From contig CACHRI010000002.1 of assembly GCA_902582155.1 (NCBI GenBank), positions 1 through 64,000 on the forward strand: a stretch of DNA of 64,000 bases, written 5' to 3'. Of the stretch, positions 48,247 through 51,027 are shown piece by piece. A program made the translations under genes and the position numbers. Origin of the DNA: an uncultured Pelagibacteraceae bacterium (GTDB lineage Bacteria > Pseudomonadota > Alphaproteobacteria > Pelagibacterales > Pelagibacteraceae). The notes below the pieces were generated by a model, which had not been told where the DNA came from, searched no databases, and saw nothing but the letters and a program-made list of their open reading frames with translations. Positions within the stretch are counted from its first letter, which is position 1. Each line of letters opens with the position of its first letter.

Positions 48247-48333
48247 GGGCGAATGGTGGAACTGGTAGACGCGCCGGACTCAAAATCCGGTGGTAGCAAT
48301 ACCTTGAGAGTTCGAGTCTCTCTTCGCCCACCA
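48247..48333 (+). tRNA. tRNA-Leu (anticodon CAA)
   Basis: An 87-base class II tRNA with encoded CCA. The acceptor stem GGGCGAA pairs with TTCGCCC, followed by discriminator A. The anticodon stem CCGGA/TCCGG encloses the loop CTCAAAA, giving anticodon CAA for UUG codons. The variable arm (about TGGTAGCAATACC) is long as in leucine tRNAs, and the T-loop is TTCGAGT. A TATAGT at 48234-48239 could be a -10, but no good -35 precedes it. The next gene begins four bases after CCA. Confidence 0.97.
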
Positions 48334-48337
48334 AGTT

Positions 48338-50014
48338 ATGGAAATAAATAAATTAAATAGTCTTGTAGAATTATATTTTAAGAAATTCAAAGAAGTAAAC
48401 TCTAATAAGCTTTTTTTAAAATGGTTAAAGCCAGGTAAACTTGATTATAACTGGAAAGATATTACTGAGAGAATATTTAAACTAACTCATGAGATAAAGT
48501 CTTTAATTGAAGATGGTGATAGGTGTTTAATTTTATCAGAGAACAGACCATATTGGCTTATGGCCGATTTAGCAGTGATGAATGCAGGCGGTATTTCAGT
48601 TCCCATTTTTACTACTTATTCATCTGAAGATTATAAATATATTTTAAATGACTGTAAGCCATCAGTTATAATTGTCTCGAACAACCAACAATTTGCAAAA
48701 ATAAAAGATTTTTTGAATTCAGAAGTTAAAAAGATAATTTCTTTTGAGGAGATAGAAGCTGAAAGTTTAACCATAAATGAAATTTTTAAAAACAGAAAAT
48801 CAGAAAAAATAATTAACAATAATTTAACCAGAAGCCATCCAGCTTGTATAATTTACACATCAGGAACCTCAGGAAACCCGAAGGGAGTAATTTTAAGCCA
48901 TGGAGGAATTTTGTCAAATTGTGAGGGAGCCTTTGATTTATTACAACCGCTCATAAAATTAAAAGACCCTATATTTTTAACTTGGCTACCATTATCACAT
49001 TCGTATGAACACACTGTCCAGTATGTCCAAATATTATTAGGAGCAAAAATATTTTATGCAGAAAGTTTAGAAAAACTTTTATCAAATATGACAATCGCTA
49101 AACCAACTATTATGACAGCCGTACCTAGATTTTATCAAAATTTATATAATAAAATTTTATCTAATTTTTCTAGGCAAAAAGGTTTAAAAAAAAAGTTAAT
49201 TGATAATACAATTTTTCTGGGCACGAAAATTCTTAAAAAAGAAAAACTGAGTTTAAGAGAAAAATTAATTAATATCTTATGTGATATTTTAGTAAGGAAA
49301 AAAGTTAAAAAACAATTTGGCGGTCAATTACAAGCCTTTGTTTCGGGGGGTGGAGCTCTTGATCAGAAAATTGGAGAATTTTTAAACTCTATAGGTTTAC
49401 CTACTTTACAGGGTTATGGTTTAACTGAGGCTTCACCCGTAGTTAGTTGCAATTTAACACAAAATATCAAAGTTGATACAGTAGGACCACCCTTCAGAAC
49501 AAATAAAGTAAAAATTGAAAAAGATGGAGAAATTTTGATTAAAGGTGAAAATGTAATGATTGGTTATTGGAATAAAAAAAAGGAAACTGATGAAATAATT
49601 AAAGATGGTTGGCTACATACAGGGGATATAGGGCAATTTGATAAAGATGGAAACTTAAAAATTACAGATAGAAAAAAAGAATTAATTGTAAATTTAGGTG
49701 GGGATAATATCTCTCCAACAAAAATCGAAAATATATTATGTTTAAATGAATATATTAAACAAAGTTTTGTTTACGGCGACAAAAAAAACTATTTAGTTGC
49801 AATTATTGTAACTGATTCGTTATCAAACGAAGAAGATATTAAAAAATTTATTGAACATACGAATAAAAATCTTTCATTAATTGAAAAAATTAAAAAATTT
49901 AAGTTAATTACGGAAGAATTTACAATTTCAAATAGAATGTTAACACCAACATTAAAGTTAAAAAGAAAAGAAATTTTAAAAAATTATAAACAAGAAATAG
50001 ATAATCTTTATTAA
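48338..50014 (+). CDS. Long-chain acyl-CoA synthetase (AMP-forming)
   Basis: A 558-residue ANL-superfamily enzyme that activates fatty acids to acyl-CoA through acyl-AMP. Motifs are the P-loop IYTSGTSGNPKGVILSHGG near residue 172, WLPLSHSYEHT, QGYGLTEASPVVSCN near 365, and the hinge region LHTGDIGQFDKDGNLKITDRKKE. The overall pattern resembles the FadD15/long-chain subgroup rather than acetyl-CoA synthetase. The start at 48338 fits the family N-terminus (LVELYFKKF). It lies four bases after a tRNA gene, leaving no room for a ribosome-binding site on its processed mRNA. Exact chain length is unknown. Confidence 0.9.
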   Translation: MEINKLNSLVELYFKKFKEVNSNKLFLKWLKPGKLDYNWKDITERIFKLTHEIKSLIEDGDRCLILSENRPYWLMADLAVMNAGGISVPIFTTYSSEDYKYILNDCKPSVIIVSNNQQFAKIKDFLNSEVKKIISFEEIEAESLTINEIFKNRKSEKIINNNLTRSHPACIIYTSGTSGNPKGVILSHGGILSNCEGAFDLLQPLIKLKDPIFLTWLPLSHSYEHTVQYVQILLGAKIFYAESLEKLLSNMTIAKPTIMTAVPRFYQNLYNKILSNFSRQKGLKKKLIDNTIFLGTKILKKEKLSLREKLINILCDILVRKKVKKQFGGQLQAFVSGGGALDQKIGEFLNSIGLPTLQGYGLTEASPVVSCNLTQNIKVDTVGPPFRTNKVKIEKDGEILIKGENVMIGYWNKKKETDEIIKDGWLHTGDIGQFDKDGNLKITDRKKELIVNLGGDNISPTKIENILCLNEYIKQSFVYGDKKNYLVAIIVTDSLSNEEDIKKFIEHTNKNLSLIEKIKKFKLITEEFTISNRMLTPTLKLKRKEILKNYKQEIDNLY

Positions 50015-50142: not shown

Positions 50143-50170
50143 TTGACATCAAAGAAAAAAAACTTAAAGA
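50143..50170 (+). promoter_or_regulatory. Sigma-70-type promoter for the 23-codon basic peptide gene
   Basis: TTGACA at 50143-50148 is a perfect -35, and TAAAGA at 50165-50170 lies 16 bases further. The predicted leader is about 45 bases and ends with AGGGAGA before the ATG at 50221. The rest of the 206-base gap after the acyl-CoA synthetase gene is A/T-rich spacer in which I see no other gene. Confidence 0.65.
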
Positions 50171-50220
50171 TTAATTAACAAAACGAATCATAAAGATTTG
50201 TTTATAAACAGGGAGATAAG

Positions 50221-50292
50221 ATGGCTAAAAGAAGAAAAAAAGCTAAAAAGAAAAAAGCTAAAAAAGCAAAAAGAAGAAGAAGAAGAAGATAG
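50221..50292 (+). CDS. 23-residue Lys/Arg-rich peptide
   Basis: A short gene, ATG to TAG, coding for Met-Ala followed almost only by Lys, Arg and Ala, ending in six consecutive Arg. Eighteen of 23 residues are basic. It has its own promoter (50143-50170), a good ribosome-binding site (AGGGAGA, about 7 bases before ATG) and a long hairpin terminator just downstream, so it is a stand-alone unit. The composition resembles histone H1-like tails or a nucleic-acid-binding peptide; binding DNA, rRNA or acidic proteins is inference. It matches no family I can name. A non-coding RNA reading of the same unit cannot be excluded. Confidence 0.68.
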   Translation: MAKRRKKAKKKKAKKAKRRRRRR

Positions 50293-50315
50293 TTACCTTC
50301 TAAATTCTTTTAATT

Positions 50316-50349
50316 AAACGCCCTTTTTAAAACTTTAAAAAGGGCGTTT
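50316..50349. terminator. Bidirectional intrinsic terminator
   Basis: AAACGCCCTTTTTAAA at 50316-50331 pairs with TTTAAAAAGGGCGTTT at 50334-50349, a near-perfect 14-16 bp hairpin with T runs on both outer sides. It ends the basic-peptide transcript on the plus strand and the carD operon on the minus strand. Confidence 0.88.
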
Positions 50350-50355
50350 TAATTA

Positions 50356-51027
50356 TCAGCCCTCTAATAAATTTTTATTTCTTCCTAATGCTTTGTCCAT
50401 TTTCTTTTGAACTTCCTCTGGACCTGTTTTAAGAACTGCTTCAAATTCTGATTTTAATCTATCATAAGCCTTTTCAAACAACTGTCTTTCGGAATAAGAT
50501 TGATCTGCAATGATATCTGTATTCTTATTAAGATCTTTTACAACTTCAGCTAATTCGTAAATTTTACCGGAATTAATTTTCTGATCATATTCCTGGGCTC
50601 TTCTACTCCACATAGTTCTTTTGATTTTGGGTTTAGTTTTTAAAATCGATACACATTTGTTTATTTGATTGATAGATGAAATTGGTCTTAAATTGGACTG
50701 TTGATTGATCGGCACTGTCAAAGTTAGTTTTTCTTTCTCTATAAAAATTTTGTAAAATTGAATTTCAATTTGTCCAATATTAGCTTTTTCAATTGCAGTT
50801 ATTTTTCCTACTCCGTGTTTTGGGTAAACTACGAAATCCTTAACATTATACTCTCTTTTTTCTGTAGCTTGCTTTTTTATCTTCTTAATTTCTGGCTTTT
50901 CATCTTGACTTAGATTTGTTTGCCTTTTTACGGCAACCTCTACTTTAGATTTTTTATCAAGAATTTTTTTAAGTTTTTTTGTTTTTTTTACTTTTTTTTG
51001 TTTTTTTATTTTTTTCTTTTTTGGCAT
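50356..51027 (-). CDS. carD: CarD-family transcriptional regulator
   Basis: CarD proteins bind RNA polymerase beta and stabilise open promoter complexes, notably at rRNA promoters. The CarD/TRCF interaction domain (about 58-120) is visible from YNVKDFVVYPKHGVGKITAIE and FYKIFIEKEKLTLTVPIN, and the helical C-terminal part from MWSRRAQEYDQKINSGKIYELAEV. The first ~55 residues are an added, almost pure Lys stretch not found in typical ~170-residue homologues. It is two bases after the ferredoxin gene, the usual alphaproteobacterial order. Confidence 0.92.
   Translation of the reverse strand: MPKKKKIKKQKKVKKTKKLKKILDKKSKVEVAVKRQTNLSQDEKPEIKKIKKQATEKREYNVKDFVVYPKHGVGKITAIEKANIGQIEIQFYKIFIEKEKLTLTVPINQQSNLRPISSINQINKCVSILKTKPKIKRTMWSRRAQEYDQKINSGKIYELAEVVKDLNKNTDIIADQSYSERQLFEKAYDRLKSEFEAVLKTGPEEVQKKMDKALGRNKNLLEG

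Follow-up and report, generated by a model that had tools for sequence, protein, structure and literature searches.

The 341-bp gap between an acyl-CoA-ligase-like gene on the plus strand and carD on the minus strand raises the question of whether it holds a gene of its own and, if so, what a product of this size could do. SAR11 bacteria are the most abundant heterotrophs of the ocean and serve as a model for minimal genomes, and so small a gene that is conserved in a lineage discarding nearly everything presumably has an important role. A sequence-only reading of the window (the whole 64,000-nucleotide stretch analysed here) had proposed a stand-alone transcription unit for a 23-residue Lys/Arg peptide, with promoter, ribosome-binding site, start, stop and terminator of its own.

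Layout of the unit beside carD

The gap contains the whole peptide unit. Its parts and neighbours are, in window coordinates:

48338-50014, plus strand: upstream AMP-binding (acyl-CoA-ligase-like) gene (PF00501, 9.9e-64)
50143-50148, plus strand: -35 box TTGACA, seen in the sequence; TTGACAT is kept across the genus
50165-50171, plus strand: weak -10 region, about TAAAGA/TAAAGAT, placed by its spacing
50181-50203, plus strand: 5′-leader hairpin AAACGAATC-ATAAA-GATTTGTTT of 9 bp with a 5-nt loop, containing CGAATCA at 50184-50190
50210-50215, plus strand: Shine-Dalgarno sequence AGGGAG, 5 nt upstream of the ATG; GGGAG is nearly invariant
50221-50292, plus strand: open reading frame from ATG to TAG, 23 residues, MAKRRKKAKKKKAKKAKRRRRRR; frame intact in relatives
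50319-50346, both strands: palindromic terminator stem CGCCCTTTTT...AAAAAGGGCG, a strong predicted stem that aligns with itself on the minus strand
50356-51027, minus strand: carD (CdnL/CarD transcription factor; PF21095, 1.4e-19; PF02559, 5.8e-13), the convergent neighbour and synteny anchor

The reading frame with its start, stop and ribosome-binding site was thus located as proposed. For the promoter the agreement is partial: the -35 box is present, and the block TTTGACAT forms conserved columns in this region among 83 leaders, but the -10 region is weak and was missing from the list of a consensus promoter scan for that reason. The unit stands alone as claimed, but its terminator is not private. 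Since the stem is palindromic and placed between convergent genes, it probably terminates carD as well, and would be common to both genes.

Two further features lie next to the unit. A tRNA gene (48247-48330, plus strand; Rfam 54.3 bits) precedes the acyl-CoA-ligase-like gene, with its end 7 nt from that gene's start codon. CarD of SAR11 carries a long Lys-rich N-terminal tail (MPKKKKIKKQKKVKKTKKLKK...), encoded in the window within 50356-51027 (minus strand) and also seen at loci L191, L342 and L345; it is even longer in the sister family and represents a second polycation adjoining the peptide gene.

Codon-level constraint and distribution

In the 64-kb window this is the sole ATG-initiated reading frame of 20-60 residues with at least 50% Lys plus Arg. 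Markov-resampled windows of the same dinucleotide make-up contained 0.017 such frames at the 50% threshold and none in 60 at 60-70%. Together with the conservation described below this rules out a chance reading frame.

The frame is intact in all 90 loci extracted from the genus, which comprise 42 different coding sequences for 30 different peptides of 20-25 residues, and the length differences among them are whole codons only. Peptide changes are limited to Lys/Arg exchanges, Ala/Thr exchanges or silent substitutions, and the second codon, GCT, is invariant across the genus. Acidic residues are absent from the peptides: about 1,630 Lys/Arg codons include not one GAA, GAG or GGA, and the whole set holds a single Gly codon and none for Glu. 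Changes at codon position 2 (Lys to Arg or the reverse) and position 3 (AAA/AAG) are common. An A-to-G change at position 1 should arise just as easily, yet Glu codons are absent. In some lineages AGA has been replaced silently by CGT or CGA, the former a two-base change. The proposed comparison of synonymous and non-synonymous changes at Lys/Arg codons came out as expected for a translated sequence, with silent AGA replacements and with amino acid changes between Lys and Arg.

According to the sequence-only reading, frameshifts or stop codons in relatives, with the RNA structure alone preserved, would have indicated a non-coding RNA. The intact frames, whole-codon indels and restricted substitutions answer this in favour of a peptide-coding sequence. 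As the structure of the leader RNA is conserved as well, the gene combines coding function with a structured leader. It is highly improbable that the locus works solely as a small regulatory RNA, bounded by a hairpin at each end, in which the reading frame is incidental. Both the leader hairpin and the terminator are strongly conserved, as such an RNA would require, but translation is required by the constraint on codons, the silent changes, the in-frame indels and a repeat expansion to 58-91 residues, and Rfam offers no match. While the codon-level constraint rules out a non-coding RNA as sole function, a dual-function RNA, coding and regulatory, is conceivable. We conclude that the locus is an unannotated SAR11 gene predicted to encode a nearly pure Lys/Arg peptide of about 23 residues.

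When 151 genomes of the genus were searched at the DNA level, 106 contained the unit (matches with E values below about 1e-15 being counted). A separate search detected carD in the same 106 genomes, without a single discordant case. The expectation that the unit would lie upstream of the carD terminator in other SAR11 genomes held for every one of these 106 and extends over two families. Pattern and carD searches placed the reading frame opposite carD-fdxA, in convergent orientation, in ten Pelagibacteraceae genera; many of the surveyed genomes are incomplete, and the carD-based survey left out genera g6, g10, g11 and g14. The partner that stays constant is carD; upstream, the neighbour is an acyl-CoA-ligase-like gene in the Pelagibacteraceae and a different gene in the sister family.

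In three genomes of the same genus with 93-98% completeness (G006, G134, G150) the unit and a carD match are both lacking, as judged for G134 from the two match lists, neither of which includes it; the linked pair may have been lost together or may fall into an assembly gap. Seven draft contigs (G046:C16, G086:C22, G058:C6, G121:C2, G144:C2, G116:C9 and G149:C10) start inside or just before the unit, as if assembly often broke there, at the AAG-rich repeat or the variable upstream spacer. Other pattern matches in g2/g3 (L101, L109, L113, L155, L158) have a MAKRSKKKKR-like start and lie near a distant AMP-binding match; they represent a different gene. A phage or mobile origin was considered and rejected, as no viral contig with the exact pattern and no similar phage record was found.

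The peptide varies in length between lineages. It has 19-25 residues in genera near Pelagibacter, 23-35 in g4, 20-32 in g5 and 29-38 in g7/g9. In g12 it reaches 34-58 residues and turns into AKKKVAKKPAKRKVAKKKPAAKKRKPA-like repeats of the AKKKxPAAKKRKPAKKK type. At the same locus the sister family (f2) encodes a Lys/Ala/Pro-repeat protein of 40-91 residues, MEELKVIFAKARKKAKKKAAPKKKRKAAKRKPAKKK..., with variable repeat number, to which the short peptide is related by locus and leader. In a carD plus fdxA tree the sister family split off (support 100) from two Pelagibacteraceae clades (99 and 87). The long forms in the sister family and the shortest ones on the Pelagibacter side suggest that the peptide shrank; as searches beyond the order yielded no homologue, this direction is not proven. 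No corresponding gene lay beside carD in 28 loci of other alphaproteobacterial orders, and a pattern built on the N-terminus and leader found in the sister family had no match in 142 genomes across the class.

The CGAATCA leader hairpin

A conserved leader hairpin at 50181-50203, overlooked in the sequence-only reading, is the new element described here. Its 9-bp stem has a predicted folding energy of -7.4 kcal/mol (z -3.6), and its conservation equals that of the reading frame. CGAATCA is present in all 152 extracted leaders of both families (151 distinct loci, as one is listed twice; 82 distinct leaders), although these loci were selected by peptide or carD and not by the motif. In every one of them the peptide and the CGAATCA hairpin are encoded together. 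The distance from the start of TTGAC to the start of CGAATCA is 39-41 nt in 147 of the 152, which, given normal initiation, would place the motif around transcript positions +4 to +6. The hairpin is thus presumably located at the 5′ end of the mRNA.

CGAATCA opens a hairpin in every lineage, while the 3′ arm varies yet keeps pairing. The pair preceding the motif is A-U, G-U or G-C, and the G of CGAATCA pairs with U in 43 and with C in 24 of the 82 distinct leaders (67 paired). Compensating changes accompany an upward shift of the pairing in g5, g7, g9 and g12, where it involves TCACTTA/TAAGTGA or TCACATA/TATGTGA, and CGAATCA remains fixed. In g4 the repeat is the near-perfect palindrome AACGAATCA-ATT-TGATTCGTT. 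The constancy of the 5′ arm against a changing partner strand suggests that some protein or RNA reads this sequence as such, within the hairpin.

Instead of forming an RNA hairpin, the inverted repeat could serve as a DNA operator to which a repressor binds at the start site; we consider this somewhat unlikely, although it would be compatible with our preferred explanation of the peptide. The palindrome in g4 and the fixed distance to the -35 box fit an operator, but the repeat occurs only once in the one genome that was pattern-searched, 43 of the 67 paired unique leaders have G-U as the second pair, and the register moves upward in g5/g7/g9/g12 with pairing kept and CGAATCA unchanged. The RNA hairpin stays our preferred interpretation of the leader.

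The pattern search of this genome returned the leader motif as a single occurrence. Strong matches to the leader model R1 among 58 genomes of the order fell on the peptide locus or, for a few drafts, on contig ends, and all others had E values of at least 0.0018. R1 is a sequence-only model that failed to recover the g1 copies, so that the negative result for second copies is weak in g1. Across the class R1 gave five matches, one of them a true family member; the other four are taken as chance because they contain neither CGAATCA nor a basic reading frame. A motif found only at the peptide gene suggests gene-specific control, perhaps autogenous, and seven bases unchanged through two families offer a specific, testable handle on it.

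Two patterns suggest a further conserved stem, located at the ribosome-binding site: in g7/g9/g12 (L127, L129-L133, L134-L136, L161-L163) CTCC pairs with GGGAG/GGAG of this site, and sister-family leaders (L191, L341-L349) show a change from CCC...GGG to CGC...GCG beside it.

Possible role and comparison with known systems

We assign a probability of about 0.5 to the explanation that this Pelagibacterales gene encodes a minimal Lys/Arg polycation of the histone H1-tail type, likely to bind and compact nucleic acid and with its synthesis set by the leader hairpin. The gene would have a promoter of its own and a strong ribosome-binding site for translation, and its transcript would end at the terminator common with carD. 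The peptide could then bind nucleic-acid phosphate without sequence preference, as H1 tails and AlgP do, and thereby compact or charge-neutralise the nucleoid (or RNA) of a very small cell. Such a polycation would need tight dosage control, which the gene-specific hairpin at the presumed extreme 5′ end of the mRNA could supply. Judged from sequence, DNA or RNA compaction is the most likely role. The sequence-only reading had offered DNA coating, rRNA binding or neutralisation of acidic proteins as possible functions; the longer relatives favour an H1-tail- or AlgP-like reading.

Some observations count against it. The peptide of the window has only 23 residues, arranged in Lys/Arg/Ala blocks, and no Pro; the Lys/Ala/Pro repeats typical of H1-like proteins are clear in the sister family and g12. 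The genome of the window also encodes two HU/IHF-fold proteins, so that the need for another compactor is not obvious. Furthermore, the forms of 23, 27, 31, 58 and 85 residues had no match in Pfam and NCBIfam at E ≤1, described H1-like families included, and the peptide none in the PDB (E ≤1 or 10); none of the searched libraries has a family for the gene. Profile searches are weak for such low-complexity sequences, a 23-residue query having low power. Thus, the likeness to H1 is one of composition, repeats and disorder-type sequence, which convergence reaches easily, and the product appears H1-type by composition without belonging to a described H1-like family by sequence.

bTHX, bS22 and mS38/AURKAIP1-COX24 are very short Lys/Arg-rich ribosomal proteins. 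A ribosome- or RNA-associated micro-protein of this kind, with the hairpin serving autogenous control as for ribosomal proteins, is a rather unlikely explanation of our peptide. It shares with them its tiny size and Lys/Arg-rich composition; in addition, the GCT second codon invariant in the genus, the strong Shine-Dalgarno sequence, the MAKR start, the single copy and the structured leader all fit, and cis-acting leaders precede rpsB and rpsL in SAR11 (Meyer et al. 2009; PMC2704228). Nevertheless, no small ribosomal protein family was matched in Pfam, NCBIfam or the PDB (E ≤1 or 10; low power with 23 low-complexity residues), position-specific aromatic or hydrophobic residues are absent, and a length range of 19-58 residues in the Pelagibacteraceae and 40-91 in the sister family, with variable repeat number, is unlike a protein fitted to one ribosomal site.

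For the leader, the closest parallels are the SAR11 leader RNAs (the rpsB, rpsL and ffh motifs and SAM-V), which are likewise cis-acting leaders before nucleic-acid-binding or translation genes. The peptide locus differs from them in being outside Table 1 of Meyer et al. (2009), a list of candidate intergenic regions limited to GC-richer regions (PMC2704228), and in its leader being unmatched by Rfam covariance models, which at gathering threshold recovered only the tRNA in the whole window. Our search of the SAR11 literature found no paper on the peptide locus. If polycation and leader act on each other, the peptide would recognise the CGAAUCA hairpin of its own mRNA, and about 150 nt of DNA would form a complete, autogenously controlled nucleoid- or RNA-binding polycation; we regard this as unlikely. 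A chromosomal SAR11 analogue of phage N-peptide/boxB, which such binding would imply, is equally doubtful; Tat/TAR is another pair of arginine-rich peptide and cognate hairpin with which the unit would compare.

Among bacterial H1-like proteins, chlamydial Hc1/Hc2 and others are Lys-/Ala-rich disordered polycations thought to condense the nucleoid. The SAR11 peptide is likewise a Lys-rich polycation, but it is much shorter, comes from another phylum and has no Pfam match. The closest analogue is AlgP of Pseudomonas aeruginosa, a DNA-binding protein with a separate N-terminal domain and a 154-residue repeat region, whose KPAA-repeat tail is similar to histone H1 (PMC9239181). AlgP also associates with polyphosphate granules (PMC9239181), as would suit a peptide acting on a different polyanion, be it polyphosphate, acidic proteins or free RNA, by neutralising or organising it. 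Such a role is quite improbable; against it, a search of 21 genomes of the genus and order for the polyphosphate kinase PPK2 (PPK1 left aside) found none. For the H1-tail-like polycation that we prefer, AlgP provides the model of low-complexity Lys/Ala(/Pro) repeats, variable repeat number and a strongly basic character, a likeness strongest for the sister-family forms of 40-91 residues. The Pelagibacteraceae peptide differs from AlgP in its 19-58 residues, its Arg-rich C-terminus and the lack of an N-terminal domain. It may thus be among the shortest histone H1-type polycations known, and could help to explain DNA packing in tiny cells.
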